Below are positions 530 through 8,302 of a stretch of 64,000 bases of DNA, piece by piece. Each line of letters begins with the position of its first letter. The stretch's first letter is position 1. The translations under genes and the position numbers were made by a program. The stretch comes from Nonomuraea angiospora (GTDB lineage Bacteria; Actinomycetota; Actinomycetes; Streptosporangiales; Streptosporangiaceae): assembly GCF_014873145.1 (NCBI RefSeq), contig NZ_JADBEK010000001.1, positions 6,324,001 to 6,388,000 of the forward strand, read 5' to 3'. The notes beneath the pieces are model-generated. The model did not search any database and was not told the origin of the DNA. It saw only the letters and a list, made by a program, of their open reading frames with translations.

Positions 530-1435
530 CTAGCTGGCGAGTGGGGCATTCCCCAATCGAGTCTCACGGATCAGACGGCGTGCTTCCGCCGCCACGACCT
601 GCGGCATCTCCATCATCGCCACGTGACCCGCCGTCGGCAGCAAGACAAGCCGGACCTGCGCGAACGTACGGTATGCCTTCGCGGCCATGGCGGGCCGGAC
701 CAGCCGGTCGTGCCTGCCGTGCACGATCAGGGTCGAAGCCTTGACCTTGGCCGCCTGGTGCCACAGGTTGTCCTCGCCGCGGCGGAAGTATTCGGCCACG
801 ATGCCCCTGGCCGACCTGATCATGGCCTCGCCCGAGTAGGGGAGGTCGTCGCGCCTGCGGAGCTCGTCGATCGCGTCGCGCAGGCGTAGGGGATGGACGC
901 CGTTGGTGTTGGCCCAGACCATGGACACGGAGGCGTTGACGCGGTGCTCGGCGGGCACCAGGCGGAGCCTGCTCGCCACCCATTCGCCCAGTACGGGCAC
1001 CGCGGCGGCGGCCACCCGGACGGGGCCGTACCTGGGGAGCAGGTCGGGCAGCGCCGGGGAGACGAGGGTGAGCGAGCGGACCAGGTCGGGGCGGGTGGCG
1101 GCCACCCGGACGGCGACCGCGCCCCCGAGCGAGTTGCCGAACAGGTGGGCCGGGCCCGTGTGCTCCATCAGCTCGGTCACGGCCCTGGCGTGGCCGGCGA
1201 CGGTGTAGTCGCCGTCGGCCGGGGCGGGTGAGAAGCCCGCGCCGGGAAGGTCGAGGGCGTGGCCGGTGACCATGTCCTTGAGCTCGTCCATGAGGTCGGT
1301 CCAGTTGGTGGCCGACCCGGCCAGGCCGTGTACGAAGACGGCCTGCTCGCGTTGTCCCCGCTGGTCGCTCGTCGATCGGACGTGCACCGAGCCGACCATG
1401 CGGCCCGGCCAGTCCGGGACCGGCTCCGCCATCAT
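530..1435 (-). CDS. alpha/beta-fold hydrolase
   Basis: 301-residue single-domain alpha/beta hydrolase. Visible are the oxyanion-loop motif VFVHGLAGSATNW (about residues 33-45), the nucleophile elbow GNSLGG with Ser near 102, an acid in HGRHDRL and the catalytic His in TAGHVAMME near the C-terminus. The cap segment is ordinary and no signal peptide is present, so it is cytoplasmic; the substrate cannot be read. An SD-like GGGAGGA lies just upstream of two adjacent ATG codons (1435 and 1432), and the second has the better spacing. It lies 43 bp upstream of moeZ on the same strand, so co-transcription is plausible. Confidence 0.85.
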   Translation of the reverse strand: MMAEPVPDWPGRMVGSVHVRSTSDQRGQREQAVFVHGLAGSATNWTDLMDELKDMVTGHALDLPGAGFSPAPADGDYTVAGHARAVTELMEHTGPAHLFGNSLGGAVAVRVAATRPDLVRSLTLVSPALPDLLPRYGPVRVAAAAVPVLGEWVASRLRLVPAEHRVNASVSMVWANTNGVHPLRLRDAIDELRRRDDLPYSGEAMIRSARGIVAEYFRRGEDNLWHQAAKVKASTLIVHGRHDRLVRPAMAAKAYRTFAQVRLVLLPTAGHVAMMEMPQVVAAEARRLIRETRLGNAPLAS

Positions 1436-2112
1436 GCGTCCTCCCTGCCGTTCCTTCGCGTTCCCTCAACGATAACCACAGCGTCTGGGTGGGGTCTGGA
1501 TTCCGTACAGAAGCCCGCTTATGCCACCTTTTCCGGCATCAGGTACATACGGCATCACATGCCTCAAACACCCCGCTGGTGCGACCCCCGGCGGCCGTGG
1601 CGGCGTCTCGGTGCCCGGCGCGGCGCCCGGATCCGGGGCGGCGGGTGGATCCCCGGCGATCATCGCCAGGTTCGGACATATCGCCATATATCGAGGCTTA
1701 GAGGTCTAATCGATCTCATCGCATGCCAAGAGTGTGGCAAAAGCCACCGAACATCGTTTATGGCGCACCAAGGTCGGAAAGCATGACAACCAGCAGCACT
1801 TAGCGTGACGGTTGAGGAACGCACCGTTAATGGCGGGACAGACCAGCCTCGAACGCACCACCGCCGGGTGCCGCAAAAAAAGCGGGAGACATTTTCGGAG
1901 GGCGCACAACGGCGTCCTCCGAATGATGACGCCGGGCGTCGGCGAAGCGCCCGGCGTAATGGCCGTTGATATGTTCGCGGACTTTCACCGGTCCGAGGGC
2001 GGCACCGCAGTCAGGCAAATCACCACTCGCAGAACCGGCACGGCCGATGACGACAGGCCAGTCCGGGGCGCGAGCGTTGCCACGCGTGGCCGCCCTATCA
2101 ATTGCACCACAA
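1436..2112. other. non-coding region upstream of the peptide cluster
   Basis: About 680 bp with no convincing gene; the open frames here lack family resemblance and SD sites. It holds a 10-bp perfect stem (1929-1938 with 1948-1957, acgccgggcg and its complement, 9-nt loop) and the motif GGACATATC near 1675, which recurs near 2115 and, inverted, near 5380 at the outer ends of the peptide cluster. Composition is patchily AT-rich compared with the genes on both sides. Confidence 0.5.
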
Positions 2113-2322
2113 TCGGACATATCATGCCATTTCATTGGATAGATCTGTAATGCGAGCAATAAGATTCTTAATGCATAGCAAAATAGGGTCTCTCCAGTTT
2201 GCCCGCCCGTCGCCCCGGAAATGACATTCAATGGATGACTCTTCAGCAGCCGTCCAAGACCTGTTTTCAGGTACCCGGAAACGTCGAGAACGGGGCAATC
2301 GATCCTTTAGGGGGAAAACGCA
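2113..2322 (+). promoter_or_regulatory. outer-type leader/promoter region of peptide gene 1
   Basis: This block is conserved with 5169-5388 (inverted). It starts with GGACATATC, continues with an AT-rich core that includes a TAATGC direct repeat flanking AATAAGATTC, then GTCCAAGACCT, and ends with GGGGCAATCGATCC followed by TTTAGGGGGAAAACGC right before ATG. The AGGGGG is the ribosome-binding site. The AT-rich core is the likely promoter, but no standard -35/-10 pair is clear, so an alternative sigma factor is possible. Confidence 0.5.
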
Positions 2323-2718
2323 ATGCCCAAGCTCAAGAGTGTTATCGCAGGCCTCGCCGTCAGCACGGCGCTGACCGGCGGCATGGTCTGCGCGGGCGCG
2401 GCCACCACTGCGGTCAGCGCCGACGCCATCAAGCTCAACACCTCGTCCATCCTCACCGGCATCGACGACGACGGCCTCGATGACGGCCTCGGCATCGATG
2501 AGGGCATCGACGACGGCCTCACCAACGGCATCGTCATCGACCGCCGCGACCGTGACCGTCACCGCCGGCAGTGCCGCCGTCACCACGGCTGGGGCGGCGG
2601 TTGGGGCGGCGGCTGGTGGGGTGGTCGCCACCGCCGCGGCGGCGAGGTCTGCGTCGTCATCCGCAACGACAACGTCAACGACAACAGGCCCGAGCGCCGC
2701 CGGGTTCGTACCTGGTAA
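2323..2718 (+). CDS. small secreted Asp/Gly/Trp/Arg-rich peptide, copy 1 (outer, plus)
   Basis: 131 residues. It begins MPKLKSVIAGLAVSTALTGG, a Sec signal peptide shared with three neighbours, probably cleaved near AGAATT. The mature part has an acidic insert of DDG/DGL repeats found only in this copy, a basic stretch (RRDRDRHRRQC), the Gly/Trp block HGWGGGWGGGWWGG, and a final strand VCVVIRNDNVNDN with alternating Asn. Two Cys lie about 25 residues apart. I do not recognise a named family. Secretion is supported by the signal peptide; function is unknown. Copy 4 is its positional partner in the inverted duplication. Confidence 0.8.
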   Translation: MPKLKSVIAGLAVSTALTGGMVCAGAATTAVSADAIKLNTSSILTGIDDDGLDDGLGIDEGIDDGLTNGIVIDRRDRDRHRRQCRRHHGWGGGWGGGWWGGRHRRGGEVCVVIRNDNVNDNRPERRRVRTW

Positions 2719-2799
2719 CAAAACCGTGTGTTAATGGCGGGAGGATGAGCGTCCGCACCTTCGGGTAGGTCCTGTCTTCTCGTCTTCCGCGGGGGGCTT

Positions 2800-2840
2800 A
2801 GTGAGGGCTCTCCCGGCCTTTGGCCGGGGGAGCCCTCACT
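2800..2840 (+). terminator. strong stem-loop after peptide gene 1
   Basis: agtgagggctctcccggcc pairs with ggccgggggagccctcact across a 3-nt TTT loop, a 19-bp stem with about one mismatch. There is no U tract, as is usual in high-GC actinobacteria. The related stem at 4717-4750 holds the matching place in the other arm. Confidence 0.8.
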
Positions 2841-2924
2841 GCGTTGTACGGCGAGGGGGCGGTGTCATGCCGGTACGGCGGGCGACGGGGCTATATGGGT
2901 GGAAGCTTTTGTTTTAACCATGAG

Positions 2925-3101
2925 GAAGTCTGTGGTCAGCCAAATCAAGGTAGTTCCGGTTTGCTGCTGATTTGTCCGGAAATATGCATCGTGCGGGAGA
3001 TTCTCTAAGAATCGTCCGTAGCGTTTCCCCGATGCGACCGGATCTGCATTCGCCGGGCGGGGGGCGTGAAACAGGGCAATCGAACCTTTAGGGGGAAAAC
3101 A
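2925..3101 (+). promoter_or_regulatory. inner-type leader/promoter region of peptide gene 2
   Basis: Conserved in inverted form with 4497-4690: TCTGTGGT..GCCAAAT, TTCC.GTTTGCT, CCGGAAATATGCAT, then a small palindrome GATTCTCTAAGAATC (in the other arm GATGATTCGTTAAGGATCATC), and finally GGGCAATCGAACC and TTTAGGGGGAAAAC before ATG. It differs from the outer leader except in the last 35 bp, so the two gene classes are probably expressed differently. Confidence 0.45.
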
Positions 3102-3437
3102 ATGCCCAAGCTCAAGAGTGTTGTCGCAGGTCTCGCCGTCAGTACGGCGCTGACCGGTGGCGTGGTAGCCGCGGGCGCGGCCACGTCTCCGGCCGGCGCG
3201 GCCGTCCAGGTCAAGTCCGCCGCTCCCGTCCTCACCGGCAACTGCCGCGGCGGAGGCTGGCGCCGGTGCGGCTGGGGCGGTCGCTGGGGCGGTCCCCGCT
3301 GGGCCTGGGGCGGTCCCCGCTGGGGCTGGGGCGGCGGCTGGGGCGGCCACAACAGGGGCGCCCGGGTCCGGATCGTCATCGTCAACCAGAACCACAACAT
3401 CAACCGTGTCGGCCGTGGCGACCGTGACGAGTGGTAG
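3102..3437 (+). CDS. small secreted Gly/Trp/Arg-rich peptide, copy 2 (inner, plus)
   Basis: 111 residues from the ATG at 3102, which follows AGGGGGAAAACA; an upstream in-frame start at 3066 would add residues encoded by the conserved leader and is rejected. Signal peptide MPKLKSVVAGLAVSTALTGG, then AATSPAGAAVQVKSA, the two-Cys motif CRGGGWRRC (C-x7-C), repeated WGGPRW units, and the C-terminal strand VRIVIVNQNHNINR followed by GRGDRDEW. Strongly cationic, with no acidic insert. Its transcript would run into the palindromic spacer towards copy 3. Confidence 0.82.
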   Translation: MPKLKSVVAGLAVSTALTGGVVAAGAATSPAGAAVQVKSAAPVLTGNCRGGGWRRCGWGGRWGGPRWAWGGPRWGWGGGWGGHNRGARVRIVIVNQNHNINRVGRGDRDEW

Positions 3438-3525
3438 GACTCAGACACTGAGCTGAGCATCGGCGCGCCTCTGAGGCCGCCATAGCGGGCGGAGCCCCCG
3501 AGCGATGGTCCTCCGCCCCGACAAA

Positions 3526-3593
3526 CGAGTGTCCGTATTCATCGGGACCGGCGCCACCCTCCGACCGGCGCCGCCCAGCGAATACGGGCACTC
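3526..3593. repeat. left palindromic element of the central spacer
   Basis: CGAGTGTCCGTATTC at 3526-3540 faces GAATACGGGCACTC at 3580-3593, with an inner GC-rich region (two ggcgcc sites) that can also pair. This is a 14-bp stem with one G-T-type mismatch. The right element 3996-4070 is its inverted counterpart. A terminator for copy 2 is the simplest reading. Confidence 0.7.
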
Positions 3594-3995
3594 ACTTCTG
3601 TTTTCGACGGTCTTGAAGCGCTCCCCACGGATGAATCCCGGGGATTCCAGCCGTCCCAACCGTGCGGCTACGCGCATGGTCGCGACGCTGTTGCTTGGCG
3701 GTTTCGACCGCGACTCACCATACTCACGCCGGGGCACGTCACCGCAGTCGATTCCCGTCAATGCACGCTCGCGCCCTGGCGGGCACTCCCGCGCCGGGCT
3801 TACCCCCATGGCTGAAGCCAGGGGTCCGCGCCCGGCATTCTCGATCGCCTGTCTCGAGCGGGCCCCTGTCCCCCGGCTCACCGGCACCCGGCCGCCATCG
3901 CCACGGATCGTCCGTTTCCCTGGAAGAGGGCGGTCGCGGCCCTCTCCCAGGTCGCCCGTCTTCGCACGCCGGCGGCAGCGGACATGCGGACATGT
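3594..3995. other. centre of the inverted duplication, no gene seen
   Basis: About 400 bp between the two palindromic elements. Open frames cross it but lack start signals or any recognisable protein. I see no insertion-sequence ends or transposase remnant here. Confidence 0.5.
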
Positions 3996-4070
3996 CGAGT
4001 GCCCGTATTCGGTGGGTCGACGTCGGCACTGTCGGGGTGGACGTCGCAACCCGGTGAATACGGGCACTCG
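3996..4070. repeat. right palindromic element of the central spacer
   Basis: CGAGTGCCCGTATTC at 3996-4010 pairs perfectly with GAATACGGGCACTCG at 4056-4070 (15 bp) around an inner loop that contains gtcgacgtcggc and further pairing. It mirrors 3526-3593 at nearly the same distance from the centre. Likely terminator for copy 3 on the minus strand. Confidence 0.72.
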
Positions 4071-4151
4071 ATCGGCGTGGCCGGGGCTTATCGCCCAGGG
4101 GACTCCTGGTGTGGCGCGGCCCGCGCCACGGGTTCGCCTGTGCGCTGAGCT

Positions 4152-4496
4152 CTACTGCCACGTGGGCTGGTTGTTGTCCTCGTGGTGGTCCATCTCGTGG
4201 CGCTCTTCCAGGCGCTGCTGCACGTTGCGGTTGCGGTTCGTGTTGATGATGATGATCTTGATGCGAGGCATGCGGTGGCGCCAGTTGGCCCAGCGGCCGC
4301 CGCCCCAGCCGCCCCAGCCGCCCCCGCCGCAGCGGCGCCAGCCCCCGCTGCCGCAGCCCCCGGCCAGGACGGAGGTGGCGGTGCCGACCTGGGTCGCCGC
4401 GTCGGCCGCGGACATGGCCGCGCCCACGCCGACCACGCCGCCGGAGAAGGCCGTACTCATGGCGAGGCCCGCCATAACACTTCTGAGCTTGGGCAT
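4152..4496 (-). CDS. small secreted Gly/Trp/Arg-rich peptide, copy 3 (inner, minus)
   Basis: 114 residues. MPKLRSVMAGLAMSTAFSGG is the signal peptide; the mature part has CGSGGWRRC (C-x7-C), a GGGGWGGWGGGRWANW block, the strand IKIIIINTNRNRN and a charged tail rich in Glu, His and Asn (EERHEMDHHEDNN). Start and SD (AGGGGGAAAACGC) match the other copies. It is the mirror partner of copy 2, sharing the inner-type leader. The His-rich tail could bind metal; that is inference. Confidence 0.82.
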   Translation of the reverse strand: MPKLRSVMAGLAMSTAFSGGVVGVGAAMSAADAATQVGTATSVLAGGCGSGGWRRCGGGGWGGWGGGRWANWRHRMPRIKIIIINTNRNRNVQQRLEERHEMDHHEDNNQPTWQ

Positions 4497-4690
4497 TGCG
4501 TTTTCCCCCTACAGGTTCGATTGCCCCGTTCCTCACGTTCCCGGCCAATCCCCGAAAACCCGATCGACTAGGAAACGCCCCGGGATGATCCTTAACGAAT
4601 CATCCGCATCATGCATATTTCCGGTTGAAACAGCAAGCAAACTGGAATTGCCGTCATTTGGCCCACCACAGACATTGCCATGATTCGACG
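4497..4690 (-). promoter_or_regulatory. inner-type leader/promoter region of peptide gene 3
   Basis: Inverted counterpart of 2925-3101 with the same order of motifs, ending in GGGCAATCGAACC and TGTAGGGGGAAAACGC before the ATG. A palindrome-like GATGATTCGTTAAGGATCATC occupies the place of GATTCTCTAAGAATC in the other arm. Confidence 0.45.
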
Positions 4691-4716
4691 CAAACGCCAT
4701 AGATCCGGACACAGCA

Positions 4717-4750
4717 AGGGCTCCCCAGCCCTAAGGTCTGGAGAGCCCTC
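4717..4750 (-). terminator. stem-loop after peptide gene 4
   Basis: agggctccccagcc faces ggtctggagagccct around ctaa. It lies between the 3' end of copy 4 and the leader of copy 3, and its sequence resembles the stem at 2800-2840 (gagggctctcc core), so it is part of the duplicated unit. Confidence 0.7.
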
Positions 4751-4829
4751 GTCGAAAGCCTGCCGTGGGAGGCGTGGAGAAAGCCCCCTACCGCGAAAAC
4801 GCGGTCATCCCCACGCCGTCAGCACACGG

Positions 4830-5168
4830 CTATGACCAGTTGTCGTCGTTGTTGTGGTGGTGGCGGAACTCACGCTCACGCTCACGCTCGAAGCGGTTGA
4901 TGTTGATGTTCCGGTTGTGGACGTTGACCCGAACGCGGCTGTTCTGGTGGTGGCGACGCCAGCCCCAGCCACCGCCCCAGCCGCCGCCCCCGCCGCAGCG
5001 ACGCCAGCCCCAGCTGCCGCAGCCATTGGCGAGGACGGAGGCGGCGGACTTGACCTGAGCGGCGGCGCCGGCACTGGCCGAAGTCGTGGCCGCGCCCGCG
5101 GCTACCACGCCACCGGTCAGCGCCGTGCTGACGGCGAGACCCGCGAAAACAGTCTTGAGCTTGGGCAT
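4830..5168 (-). CDS. small secreted Gly/Trp/Arg-rich peptide, copy 4 (outer, minus)
   Basis: 112 residues. Signal peptide MPKLKTVFAGLAVSTALTGG, then AATTSASAGAAAQVKSA (close to copy 2), CGSWGWRRC (C-x7-C), GGGGGWGGGWGWRRHH, the alternating strand VRVNVHNRNININR and a charged tail with ERERERE and HHHNND. The leader matches that of copy 1, yet the mature sequence is closer to copies 2 and 3, so copy 1 has diverged most. Same SD as the others. Confidence 0.82.
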   Translation of the reverse strand: MPKLKTVFAGLAVSTALTGGVVAAGAATTSASAGAAAQVKSAASVLANGCGSWGWRRCGGGGGWGGGWGWRRHHQNSRVRVNVHNRNININRFEREREREFRHHHNNDDNWS

Positions 5169-5388
5169 TGCGTTTTCCCCCTAAAGGATCGATTGCCCCG
5201 TTCTCGACATTTCCGGTTATCCCGGAAAGAGGTCTTGGACGCCTGCGAAGAGCCATCCATGAACTGTCATTTCCCGACAGCAGCCCAACAAACGACACCT
5301 AGCCGGTTTTACTATGCATTAAGAATCTTATTGCTTGCATTAAAGATTTATAGAGCGAAATGACATGACTTATCCGGATATGTCCTAT
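5169..5388 (-). promoter_or_regulatory. outer-type leader/promoter region of peptide gene 4
   Basis: Inverted counterpart of 2113-2322. The last 45 bp before the ATG are almost identical to those of copy 1 (GTCGAGAACGGGGCAATCGA and onward); the AT-rich AATAAGATTCTTAATGCATA core and the distal GGACATATC are also kept. Confidence 0.5.
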
Positions 5389-5423
5389 TTGGTGATCGCG
5401 CCGAAGAGGCCTGGGGCAGCACG

Positions 5424-5447
5424 AAAAACCCCACCTCGCGGTGGGGT
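5424..5447 (-). terminator. rho-independent terminator of ku
   Basis: On the minus strand ACCCCACC, a 4-nt loop and GGTGGGGT are followed by TTTTT, a textbook intrinsic terminator, rare in such GC-rich DNA. It lies about 110 nt beyond the ku stop codon and separates ku from the peptide cluster. Confidence 0.85.
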
Positions 5448-5510
5448 GGGTACCTGAGAAAGGCGGCCGGAGGCTCGACGCGAAAAGCGCCGGCGAGGCC
5501 GTGGATCGCC

Positions 5511-5534
5511 TTCCCGCACGAAGGCGTGCGGGAA
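5511..5534. terminator. second stem-loop downstream of ku
   Basis: TTCCCGCACG and CGTGCGGGAA form a perfect 10-bp stem with a 4-nt AAGG loop, between the ku stop codon and the U-tract terminator. It may protect the 3' end or act as a first terminator. Confidence 0.6.
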
Positions 5535-5557
5535 CGCTGAGAGAGGTTCTGAAGGGG

Positions 5558-6424
5558 TCAGGCCGTCTTGCGCGTCTTGCGCTTGGCGGGGGCCTTCTCC
5601 TCGTCCTTGGACTTGGCGGCGGCCTTCTTGGGCTTGGCGGCCCCGCCCTCCCGCTCCCGCTTCGCGGCCTCCACGCTGGCGCGCAGCGCGGCCATGAGGT
5701 CGACCGCCGGTCCGGCCTCCTCTTCCTCCCGAGCCGGGACGACCTCCTTGCCGGCCACCTTCGCCTCGATCACCTGCTGCAGCGCCTCGCGGTACGTGTC
5801 GTGGTACTCGCCCGGGTCGAAGTCCGACTCCATGGTGCTGATCAGCGACTCGGCCATCTGGAGCTCCTGAGGCCGTACCTCGATGTCCTCCTCGAGGAAG
5901 CCGAAGTCCGGCGTGCGGATCTCGTCGGGCCAGAGCATGGTCTCCAGGACGAAGACGCCGTCCCGTACCCGCAGCGTGGCCAGGGACTCGCGCTGGCGCA
6001 GCGCCACCTTGACCACCGCCACCTGGCCCGAGCTCTCCAGGGCGTTGCGCAGCAGCACGTACGGCTTCGCCCCCTGCGCGTCGGGCTCCAGGTAGTACGA
6101 CTTGGCGAAGTAGATCGGGTCGATCTGCTCGGCCGGGGCGAACTGCAGGACGTCGATCCTGCGGGACGTGCTCAGCGGCAGATCCTCGAAGTCCTCGTCG
6201 GTGAGCACGACGATCTCGCCCGTCGCCAGCTCGTAGCCCTTCGCGATGTCGGAGTACGGCACCTCTTCGCCGTCCAGCGTGCACACGCGCTTGTAGCGGA
6301 TCCGGCCGCCGTCCTCGCGATGGACCTGGTGGAACGTCACGTCCTTCTGCTCGGTGGCGGAGTAGAGCTTGACGGGGATCGTGACCAGGCCAAAGGAGAT
6401 CGCACCCTTCCAGATGCTGCGCAT
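5558..6424 (-). CDS. ku: Ku protein, non-homologous end joining
   Basis: Prokaryotic Ku homodimer that threads onto DNA ends and recruits LigD. The N-terminus MRSIWKGAISFGLVTIPVKLY and the segments VHREDGGRIRYKR, GYELATGEIVVLTDEDFEDLP and PIYFAKSYYLEPD are diagnostic of the Ku core beta-barrel. The C-terminal 60 residues are a Lys/Ala-rich tail (AAKPKKAAAKSKDEEKAPAKRK), the usual DNA- and LigD-binding extension. ATG 6424 is preferred over GTG 6430 because AGGAG lies 5-6 nt before it. It is divergent from the ligD genes across 47 bp, which must hold both promoters. Confidence 0.97.
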   Translation of the reverse strand: MRSIWKGAISFGLVTIPVKLYSATEQKDVTFHQVHREDGGRIRYKRVCTLDGEEVPYSDIAKGYELATGEIVVLTDEDFEDLPLSTSRRIDVLQFAPAEQIDPIYFAKSYYLEPDAQGAKPYVLLRNALESSGQVAVVKVALRQRESLATLRVRDGVFVLETMLWPDEIRTPDFGFLEEDIEVRPQELQMAESLISTMESDFDPGEYHDTYREALQQVIEAKVAGKEVVPAREEEEAGPAVDLMAALRASVEAAKREREGGAAKPKKAAAKSKDEEKAPAKRKTRKTA

Positions 6425-6471
6425 GGTCACTCCTCAGCTCTCAATCGTTCGCCAACGGGCACATACCCGTC

Positions 6472-7386
6472 ATGGGGCAACCAATGCCATACCCGGTCGA
6501 ACCGATGCTGGCCGTACCTGGGGAACTACCCTCCGATCGCGAGAGGTACGGACTGGAGGTCAAGTGGGACGGCATCCGCGCCGTCGTCCATCTTGACGGC
6601 GGGCTGAGGGTGACGGGGCGGCACGGAGTCGAATACACGCGGAGGTATCCGGAAATATCTGGTTTCGGGATCAAGAACGCGATCATCGACGGCGAGGTCG
6701 TCGCGCTCGACAAGCGGGGCAGGCCCAGCTTCGTACGGTTGCAGCACAGGATGCACCTGACCGATCCCGAGCCGGTCATGCTGGAGCTGTACCCCGTCAC
6801 GTACATGCCGTTCGACCTGCTCTATCTCGACGGCACCCCGCTGTTCGACCTGCCCTACCGCGACCGGCGGGCGCTGCTCGACGAGCTGGACGTCGGCGCG
6901 CCCCCGTACTTCCCCGGCGACTCCGACCTGCTCACGGCCACGTCCGAGCAGGGCCTGGAAGGCGTGGTCGCCAAGCGGCTGGACTCGCCCTACCGGCCGG
7001 GCACCCGGTCCCCGTGGTGGATCAAGGTGAAGCACCTGCGCACCAGAGAGGTCGTGATCGGCGGCTGGAAGCCCGGCAAGGGGCGGCGGGCTGGCGGGAT
7101 CGGCTCGCTGGTGATGGGGATGTTCACCGATCGAGGGCTCGCGTACGTGGGGCACGTCGGGACCGGGTTCACCGACACCGTGCTCGACGAGCTCCACCGG
7201 CGGATGCGGCCGCTGGAGGTCACGCACAGCCCGTTCAGCAACGCGGTCCCGTGGCGAAATCGGTGGGTTAGGCCGGATCTCGTCGGGGAGGTGGCCTACA
7301 CGATGTGGACCGACGAGCAGCGGCTGCGCCACCCCGTGTGGCGCGGCCTGCGCCCCGACAAGCTCCCCTCGGAGGTGACGCTGTGA
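6472..7386 (+). CDS. ligD: ATP-dependent DNA ligase (LigD ligase domain as a separate protein)
   Basis: 304 residues. The adenylated Lys sits in motif I VKWDGIRA (about residue 31); GRHGVEYTRRYPEI, IIDGEVVAL (motif III), FDLLYLDG, EGVVAKRLDSPY (motif IV) and SPWWIKVKH (motif V) follow, then an OB fold with GSLVMGMF and YVGHVGTGF. It seals the ends held by Ku. The polymerase domain is encoded by the next gene, overlapping by 4 nt, so LigD activities are split here rather than fused as in mycobacteria. No LigD 3'-phosphoesterase domain is seen in either protein. Confidence 0.94.
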   Translation: MGQPMPYPVEPMLAVPGELPSDRERYGLEVKWDGIRAVVHLDGGLRVTGRHGVEYTRRYPEISGFGIKNAIIDGEVVALDKRGRPSFVRLQHRMHLTDPEPVMLELYPVTYMPFDLLYLDGTPLFDLPYRDRRALLDELDVGAPPYFPGDSDLLTATSEQGLEGVVAKRLDSPYRPGTRSPWWIKVKHLRTREVVIGGWKPGKGRRAGGIGSLVMGMFTDRGLAYVGHVGTGFTDTVLDELHRRMRPLEVTHSPFSNAVPWRNRWVRPDLVGEVAYTMWTDEQRLRHPVWRGLRPDKLPSEVTL

Positions 7387-8267
7387 ACAGCCCGGCGAAG
7401 GTGCCGGTAAAGGTCGACGGGCGAGCGCTGACGCTGAGCAACCTGGAGAAGGTCCTCTACCCCGAGTACGGCTTCACCAAGGCCGAGGTCATCGACTACT
7501 ACAGCCGCGTGGCCCCCGTGCTCCTCCCCCACCTCCGGGGCAGGCCCCTGACCGTCAAGCGCTACCCGAACGGCGTCGACGGCCAGTCCTTCTTCGAGAA
7601 GAACGCCCCCGACCACACCCCGGACTGGGTCAGGCGGGTCAAGCTCCCCGTCCCCGGCAGCACCAAGAACCGCGAGGCCATCGACTTCGCCGTCATCGAG
7701 GACCTGCCCACGCTCGTCTACTACGCCAACCTGGCCGCGCTGGAGCTGCACGTACCCCAGTGGCGCGTCGACGAGGACGGCGAGGCGCTGCCGCCCGACA
7801 CGCTCGTGTTCGACCTCGATCCCGGCCCGCCCGCGACCATCGTCGAGTGCTGCCGCGTGGCCCTCAGGCTGCGCGAGGTGCTGGCGGCCGACGGGCTCAC
7901 CGCCCTGCCGAAGACCAGCGGGAACAAGGGCATGCAGCTGTACGCCGACTGGGACTGCCGCGAGGAGCCCTCCGCGTACGCCAAGAGGCTGGCCCGGCTC
8001 CTGGAGAAGGAGCAGCCCGGGCAGGTCGTCAGCGTGATGACGAAGAAGGCCAGGCCCGGCAAGGTGTTCATCGACTGGAGCCAGAACAACCCGGCCAAGA
8101 CCACCGTGGCGCCCTACTCGCTGCGGGCCAGGGAGCTGCCGACCGTCTCGACACCGCTGAGGTGGACGGAGGTCGAGGGCTGCGAACGGCCCGAGGAGCT
8201 GGTGTTCACGGCGGCCGACGTACTCGCCAGAGTGGAGAAACGCGGCGACCTTTTCGGCCGGGCGTAG
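7383..8267 (+). CDS. ligD: LigD-type DNA polymerase/primase
   Basis: 294 residues from GTG 7383, whose GTGA overlaps the ligase stop; an upstream ATG at 7305 would extend into the ligase gene. Archaeo-eukaryotic primase fold: LTLSNLEKVLYPEYGFTKAE, RPLTVKRYPNGVDGQ, FFEKNAP, the metal-binding VFDLDPGP, and SGNKGMQLYADW. It fills gaps and adds nucleotides, often ribonucleotides, during end joining. It shares an operon with the ligase and is divergent from ku, so the locus is a complete minimal NHEJ set. Confidence 0.94.
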   Translation: MNSPAKVPVKVDGRALTLSNLEKVLYPEYGFTKAEVIDYYSRVAPVLLPHLRGRPLTVKRYPNGVDGQSFFEKNAPDHTPDWVRRVKLPVPGSTKNREAIDFAVIEDLPTLVYYANLAALELHVPQWRVDEDGEALPPDTLVFDLDPGPPATIVECCRVALRLREVLAADGLTALPKTSGNKGMQLYADWDCREEPSAYAKRLARLLEKEQPGQVVSVMTKKARPGKVFIDWSQNNPAKTTVAPYSLRARELPTVSTPLRWTEVEGCERPEELVFTAADVLARVEKRGDLFGRA

Positions 8268-8302
8268 GCTGGGTCCGTCCACACCAAGAGGGGGACCAGA
8301 AG

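Follow-up and report, generated by a model that had tools for sequence, protein, structure and literature searches.

What do the four small genes arranged as mirror images beside the Ku and LigD genes of Nonomuraea angiospora encode, and what accounts for the symmetry of the arrangement? The genes, numbered 1 to 4 from left to right, lie at positions 2113-5388 of a stretch of 64,000 nucleotides (nt) from contig NZ_JADBEK010000001.1 (positions 6,324,001 to 6,388,000), which is referred to here as the window. An initial annotation made from the letters alone had described an inverted duplication of a two-gene unit for secreted peptides within these limits, which proved adequate, as both outer leaders are included. 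Beyond that description, we found that the layout is old and occurs genus-wide, that the leader contains a covarying hairpin, and that the leader and signal peptide together also precede other mature sequences. We read the genes, with moderate confidence, as encoding four paralogous, co-regulated secreted structural proteins that would assemble on the hyphal or spore surface and that have one kind of regulatory leader. Both the protein family and the leader appear to be undescribed so far; an open-access literature search, with the subscription literature largely outside its reach, returned nothing on either.

Organization of the mirrored cluster

The four genes are convergent, two per strand. 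They encode a common signal peptide (MPKL[KR]..-AGLA..), and a shared block of 30 nt precedes each start codon. The initial annotation had pointed to a common signal peptide and Shine-Dalgarno (SD) block, and both were confirmed: all four proteins start with MPKL[KR], and the pre-start block GGGGCAATCGANCCTNTAGGGGGAAAAC, with up to 3 mismatches allowed, has four copies in the genome of 13.1 Mb, each of them within the cluster, as opposed to 0 for a reversed control. A profile of the protein family likewise has four matches in the N. angiospora genome, all in the cluster (scoring covered 150 of 394 first-look candidates); the proteins of genes 2-4 are 45-56% identical to that of gene 1. The inverted two-gene duplication was also borne out by the repeat listing, in which inverted arms of 42-219 nt with 74-90% identity span the leaders, signal peptides and 3' hairpins. 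The highest identity joins 2272-2427 to 5064-5219 (156 nt, 90%); further arms are 2114-2183 and 5307-5376 (83% over 70 nt), 3091-3309 and 4289-4507 (74% over 219 nt), 2965-3017 and 4583-4635 (77% over 53 nt), and the hairpin regions 2803-2844 and 4709-4750 (81% over 42 nt). The features of the cluster are listed below, where R1 denotes the covariance model of the leader.

2113-2322, plus strand: leader of gene 1, outer class, with the covarying hairpin/core element (R1 match 2256-2331; inverted copy 5169-5388; outer-class alignment of 44 leaders)
2323-2718, plus strand: gene 1, 131 amino acids, outer-left type, with an acidic DDG-repeat insert, a G/W/R stretch and the strand VCVVIRNDNVNDN
2801-2839, plus strand: G+C hairpin 3' of gene 1, terminator-like without a T-run (read from the sequence and present as a mirrored copy; not called by the terminator scan)
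2850-3101, plus strand: leader of gene 2, inner class (R1 match 3050-3110), with its start placed by eye
3102-3437, plus strand: gene 2, 111 amino acids, inner-left type (VRIVIVNQNHN)
3527-3593: stem-loop 3' of gene 2, arms GAGTGTCCGTATTC / GAATACGGGCACTC (read from the sequence)
3997-4069: mirror stem-loop 3' of gene 3, GAATACGGGCACTC arms (inverted-repeat listing)
4152-4496, minus strand: gene 3, 114 amino acids, inner-right type (IKIIIINTNRN)
4497-4700, minus strand: leader of gene 3, inner class (R1 match 4488-4564), with its start placed by eye
4716-4750, minus strand: G+C hairpin 3' of gene 4, mirror of 2801-2839 (inverted-repeat listing and sequence reading)
4830-5168, minus strand: gene 4, 112 amino acids, outer-right type (VRVNVHNRNIN)
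5169-5388, minus strand: leader of gene 4, outer class (R1 match 5160-5236)

For gene 2, the MPKLK start was chosen over a GTG at 3066 because the ribosome-site block is conserved. The proposal that gene 1 pairs with gene 4 and gene 2 with gene 3 held for the flanks and failed for the coding sequence. The leaders (-200 to -36) are 81% and 72% identical for the 1:4 and 2:3 pairs, respectively, and the 3' flanks 70% and 66%, whereas the mature parts break the pairing (1:4, 49%; 2:3, 66%; 3:4, 71%). The mature part of gene 4 is thereby closest to that of gene 3, while its signal-peptide region is closest to that of gene 2 (94%).

Several smaller elements lie within the cluster. The stem-loops at 3527-3593 and 3997-4069 have 14-nt arms in common, with GAATACGGGCACTC present in 3 exact copies and in 1 copy with a mismatch; elsewhere in the genome it has no exact copy and a single one-mismatch copy, which is chance level. 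These mirror stem-loops between genes 2 and 3 are possibly two transcription ends. Within gene 1, 12/18-bp direct repeats at 2466-2540 encode DDGL/DEGI-like repeats. A 36-nt AT-rich block, TAATGCNAGCAATAAGATTNTTAATGCATAGCAAAA, lies at 2148-2183 and 5307-5342 and contains an apparent direct repeat ~22 bp apart. It is well kept in outer leaders, its 2 genome-wide copies (up to 3 mismatches) are both in the cluster, and it is a candidate promoter or operator. A promoter of the form TTGATA-N18-TAAGAT can be read by eye in the outer consensus, but is not claimed here because a sigma-70 scan of 1900-5560 gave no match.

A covarying hairpin in the leaders

Upstream of a constant core, the leaders contain a hairpin whose arms co-vary (GACAUUUUC/GAAAAUGUC, AUAUUUUCC/GGAAAAUAU and CGUUUUCC/GGAAAACG). 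When 16 leaders of several genera were aligned, double changes were seen in 8 of the 11 pairs and none of 500 shuffles reached the covariation score, a test favored by the choice of its seed, which consisted of the 16 register-consistent members of 35 leaders picked by eye, with the structure also drawn by eye. First consensus folds on loose alignments did not recover the hairpin. The covariance model R1 was built from the same 16 leaders and gave 182 matches in 79 sources (E<=0.01). Among 138 distinct leaders, taken from the best 150 of these matches, double changes occur in all 11 pairs, and covariation is 0.344 as compared to 0.140 when shuffled and at most 0.100 when slid. The slid control weighs most here, since R1 itself shaped the alignment and its seed leaders had been picked by eye. 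With compensatory changes beyond both the shuffled and slid controls, the leader is a structured element of the 5' untranslated region (UTR), and the hairpin is presumably transcribed.

The four R1 matches at E<=1 in the N. angiospora genome are all in the cluster (150 of 1470 first-look candidates scored). Across the bacterial family it was found in 49 of 200 sampled genomes and 13 of 68 genera, and in a class-wide sample in 6 of 296 genomes, all Streptosporangiaceae; stricter filters were applied to samples of more than 40 genomes, so weak matches are lost in these counts. An Rfam scan of 1400-6500 gave 10 matches at E<=5, all under the gathering score and none over the four R1 hairpins. We consider the leader a candidate regulatory RNA that is absent from Rfam, displays clear covariation and is tied to one class of secreted protein.

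The leaders fall into an outer and an inner class, and a near-invariant core runs from the hairpin to the start codon. In the outer class, ~160 nt upstream of the core are conserved genus-wide (71-78%) as opposed to 60-61% for the mature coding sequence, and part of this stretch may be a promoter. Larger structures gained little support. When the entire outer leader was modeled with four helices, 326 of 500 shuffles paired as well and 5 of 500 reached the covariation, while the long-range helix of this model between AUGACAUUC of the UTR and codons 5-8 showed double changes in 3 of 9 pairs (covariation reached by 1 of 500 shuffles), which is a weak hint only.

Conservation continues into the coding sequence. 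Pro2 is encoded by CCC in 160 of 163 cases, whereas CCC accounts for only 103 of the 337 codons for Pro in mature parts. Across 184 genes, AGT (84) is the most frequent codon at position 6 and GTT (54) at position 7; Ser6 is encoded by AGT in 84 cases and AGC in 21, while AGT makes up 14 of 594 Ser codons and GTT 24 of 782 Val codons in mature parts. Synonymous differences amount to 49.5 over 520 sites in the signal region versus 184.1 over 994 sites in the mature part (hand sum over 19 pairs). This codon bias, with the approximately halved synonymous differences, points to constraint on the nucleic acid itself in the first 30 nt. A start-codon helix, GGGCA/UGCCC, which would involve the start codon and codon 2, can form in 143 of the 160 CCC genes (null 13%, from 80 of these).

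Age, selection and symmetry of the layout

In 24 convergent clusters, the outer-left gene has a [VI]C[VIT]..NxNxN strand in 21 and the other positions in 0 of 54; for two of the three exceptions (L022, L034) the true outer-left gene is cut off by a contig end. The cluster positions are therefore old gene types. The mirror layout is old as well, because outer leaders (-200 to -36) are nearly as similar between genomes (73%) as inside one genome (76%); mature parts at the same position are 60-63% identical between genomes. A recent duplication is ruled out by the recurrence of the layout and the position types across the genus.

The initial annotation had suggested diversifying or copy-number selection. 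Copy number is indeed variable (1 to 7 family genes per locus, with some loci cut by contig ends), but diversifying selection is unsupported for the window genes, since the ratios of nonsynonymous to synonymous change (dN/dS) of their mature parts against N. jabiensis (L009), the closest relative, are 0.29, 0.20, 0.55 and 0.16 for genes 1-4, respectively. These genes are under purifying selection, with 9 indel residues between gene 1 and its ortholog. Among 15 other close pairs, chosen by hand, dN/dS is below 0.6 in 11, 0.90 in one and 1.00-1.33 in three; the latter come from the comparison of L045 with L088, whose alignments have 5-25 indel positions, and may point to faster change in some lineages.

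Symmetry of the arms could also be kept by gene conversion between them rather than by selection on each leader, an explanation that we judge rather unlikely overall. Its best case is found in the inner genes. In N. longispora (L018), those at 6714-6998 and 7875-8159 encode an identical protein from coding DNA that is 99-100% identical and in opposite orientation, which suggests recent conversion or duplication; for inner pairs, no other partner is closer than that of the same genome in 5 of 9 genomes in the signal region, in 4 of 9 in the mature part and in 5 of 9 in the 3' flank, and in the window genes 2 and 4 have 94% identity in the signal region. The leaders tell against it. The own-genome partner is best for the outer leaders in only 1 of 22 genomes, so that conversion is not the general cause of outer symmetry, and for the inner leaders in 2 of 9; the near-equality of within-genome and cross-genome identity of the outer leaders (76% and 73%) argues likewise. 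Gene conversion may lie behind the symmetry of the inner pairs. The partner comparison used 22 of the 24 convergent clusters (without L022 and L034), and L109 and L110, which have another layout, belong to neither set.

Distribution and genomic site

Homologs with a conserved signal peptide in related genomes, as the initial annotation had anticipated, were found by a profile search. The profile of the four proteins, scored on the best 8000 candidates by shared words, returned 99 relatives, of which the named ones are nearly all from Nonomuraea, with a few from Streptosporangium, Planotetraspora and Microtetraspora. Within Nonomuraea, 53 of 54 genomes match at E<=1e-3, a few of them marginally. 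Pfam and NCBIfam scans gave no fitting family for the four proteins (chance NCBIfam matches only), in agreement with the initial annotation, which had matched the mature parts to no familiar family, and a Pfam search with 56 relatives at E<=0.1 listed 4 families, with PF03777 not among them.

From 78 source stretches (37 and 40 loci plus the window), 59 clusters were kept; the remainder either yielded no proteins or had at least half of them in common with one of the clusters retained. Layouts include >>< (10), >><< (9), >< (3) and ><< (2), with many clusters ending at contig or locus ends. Tandem arrays of 4-7 copies occur in Microtetraspora and in most Planotetraspora loci among the matches listed, and L023 and L028 have a single copy. 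An abhydrolase and/or Ku-LigD neighbor is present at 35 of 37 named loci, L023 and L028 having neither. In N. angiospora, the scanned neighbors are an abhydrolase on one side and Ku with two LigD frames on the other; the Ku and LigD genes at 5558-8267 adjoin the cluster, as in most named relatives, and their link to the secreted proteins looks like conserved synteny only. A further neighboring fragment presumably resembles MoeB/ThiF. In N. candida (L026), frames at 6799-6954 and 7989-8282 lie in opposite orientation and match the family profile without the family signal peptide; they may be decayed copies or sequence errors. The 11.85-Mb N. gerenzanensis record (L189; NZ_LT559118.1) is filed among plasmids as 'plasmid I' and, to judge from its size, is presumably the chromosome.

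Mature proteins and reuse of the leader

The usual mature architecture in relatives comprises two cysteines, a G/W/R/H-rich stretch and an alternating V-x-V-x-V-x-N-x-N-x-N strand. In a set of 269 proteins, for which the mature part was taken from residue 34 and a few members are truncated at the start, exactly two Cys are present in 222, and the motif [VIL]x[VIL]x(1-3)NxNxN occurs in 188 as compared to 0.3 after shuffling. The mature parts had been described as cationic; this applies to genes 2-4 (net charge +10.0, +5.1 and +7.3) and fails for gene 1 (+1.1, with 14% Asp). AlphaFold gave a mean predicted local distance difference test (pLDDT) of 51.6 and a predicted template modeling score of 0.16, with the best block at residues 81-90, within which the Val/Asn strand lies (pLDDT 71). 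A Protein Data Bank sequence search found no relative and one chance match (E 0.28).

The leader has a wider range than this mature architecture. In 20 regions hand-picked from distant R1 matches, the protein that follows always begins with the same kind of signal peptide (profile E<=1.3e-4). A mature profile trained on 130 proteins, with the Microtetraspora and Planotetraspora clusters left out, matched 9 of the 20 at E<1e-4 and 3 marginally (E 0.004-0.023), and gave nothing for 8 (E >0.1 or absent). The latter include a Gly/Phe/Asn-rich type (L167, L168) and a Microbispora type (L165, L166, L169), which has 24 relatives of its own, the named ones being from Microbispora except for one from Sphaerimonospora. 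L170, L171 and L172 are each the sole R1 match of a genome, and L155-L159 are from five contigs of one genome; their distance from the main site is not established. In such low-complexity mature parts, extreme divergence and replacement are indistinguishable. Tentatively, and with less than even confidence by some way, we suggest that a portable cassette of leader hairpin, core and signal peptide is kept across Streptosporangiaceae while the mature part is swapped for low-complexity sequences that are unrelated to one another. A single export module coordinated by RNA would then provide each lineage with its own components of the hyphal or spore surface.

Functional interpretation

A role as structural subunits is the most economical reading of the four proteins because their types are kept, each has one alternating strand, and they are apparently secreted, multi-copy proteins with paired cysteines and low-complexity linkers. 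Each gene would have its own transcript including the hairpin, and each product, to judge from a signal peptide read by eye, would be exported by Sec and form one disulfide. The proteins would then co-assemble by stacking of the Val/Asn strand into an extracellular layer or fiber on hyphae or spores. The leader would coordinate their amounts through translation control or mRNA stability at the layer-building stage, and a common leader would fix the relative amounts of the subunits.

A number of observations weigh against this reading. Chaplins, which are known surface proteins, are already present in 54 of 54 genomes of the genus. AlphaFold gives no fold, which fits disorder or polymerization and proves neither, and expression, localization and assembly are all deduced from sequence. 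A sigma-70-like promoter scan of 1900-5560 had no match, and the sole T-tailed terminator (5428-5447, minus strand) is upstream of gene 4. As to regulation, the four-helix model of the outer leader pairs no better than shuffles; where codon 2 differs, the GGGCA helix is compensated in 7 of 24 cases (29%, with 21% expected by chance); the SD is unpaired at 0.31 versus 0.20 in shuffles, and hence no less accessible; and the start codon is moderately less accessible (0.43 unpaired versus 0.58 in shuffles). Sequestration of the ribosome site through GGGCA was accordingly lowered as a candidate for want of clear compensation and of reduced SD accessibility, the latter of which, as modeled, would speak mildly against a ribosome site that is off by default. 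We do not claim a ribosome-site switch because the helix is near-invariant and not clearly compensated, the SD is not hidden and the larger leader model is poorly supported.

Close to an even call, in our estimate, is the simpler possibility that the leader is a passive element for mRNA stability or translation strength of highly expressed genes, without a switch. A simple, sequence-variable hairpin followed by a near-constant ribosome site would suit this role, as would an SD that is not hidden and the lack of matches to Rfam regulatory families, although the ~160 nt conserved in the outer class exceed the needs of a stability hairpin. For the proteins themselves, we regard it as improbable that they are secreted cationic antimicrobial or bacteriocin-like peptides, in which a conserved leader would precede varied Gly/Trp/Arg cores aimed at neighbors. 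Trp/Arg/Gly-rich composition is typical of antimicrobial peptides, the median isoelectric point (pI) of the mature parts is 10.7, and the mature parts diverge faster than the outer leaders; yet gene 1 encodes a nearly neutral mature part, pI is 5.7 or below in the bottom 5% of relatives, and the proteins that follow this leader in Microbispora appear acidic by eye. The mature parts of the window's genes are, moreover, under purifying selection with their position types kept, and no immunity, export or modification gene is found among the scanned abhydrolase, Ku and two LigD frames. Extracellular binding of metal or nucleic acid by His-, Cys- and Arg-rich proteins, for instance to capture metal or DNA in the matrix, seems likewise improbable to us. 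Many relatives have His-rich stretches, the cysteine pair is usual and the charge is mostly strongly positive, but His content is only 3-8% in the window proteins while high in some relatives, and a conserved Val/Asn strand would not be expected for metal binding.

Comparison with known systems

The chaplins (PF03777; ChpA-H of Streptomyces) are, like the proteins described here, small, multi-copy and secreted by mycelial, sporulating actinomycetes, and the surface assembly known for them is what we propose here. Short-form chaplins have two cysteines. The four proteins are nevertheless not chaplins, because none of them has the chaplin domain (a Pfam search at E<=1 gave 0 families for each), which the genome encodes at another site, 7.49-7.56 Mb; they also differ in being mostly cationic, in their Val/Asn strand and in the RNA leader common to their genes. 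Rodlins (RdlA/RdlB) offer a parallel as paired small secreted structural proteins that accompany chaplins. Obvious rodlins are ascribed to streptomycetes only, and Streptosporangium roseum is ascribed chaplin-like proteins (PMC4255298). The present proteins may differ from rodlins, to judge from that distribution and from an NCBIfam scan with chance matches only.

Curli-type and other amyloid strands carry N/Q ladders, and the alternating hydrophobic/Asn positions found here are compatible with stacked beta strands. This is a resemblance only, and in the examples listed each protein has one such strand, unlike curli-type amyloids. Riboswitches and RNA thermometers also act from conserved leaders, and here a covarying hairpin directly precedes the ribosome site; the present leader differs in having no Rfam family, in being found in one bacterial family in the class sample and in always preceding the same signal peptide (20 matches read). 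No modification enzyme for ribosomally synthesized and post-translationally modified peptides is present among the scanned abhydrolase, Ku and two LigD frames or in the MoeB/ThiF-like fragment, and the leader peptide reads by eye as a Sec signal.

Surface proteins of actinomycete spore-formers outside Streptomyces are, in our judgment, poorly described. If the structural reading is true, nearly every searched Nonomuraea genome would have a second surface system, unrelated to chaplins, and its N-rich strands would be new candidates for bacterial fiber proteins. Should the cassette also prove real, reuse of the leader before dissimilar mature parts would represent a module for regulation and export whose evolution is separate from that of its cargo.

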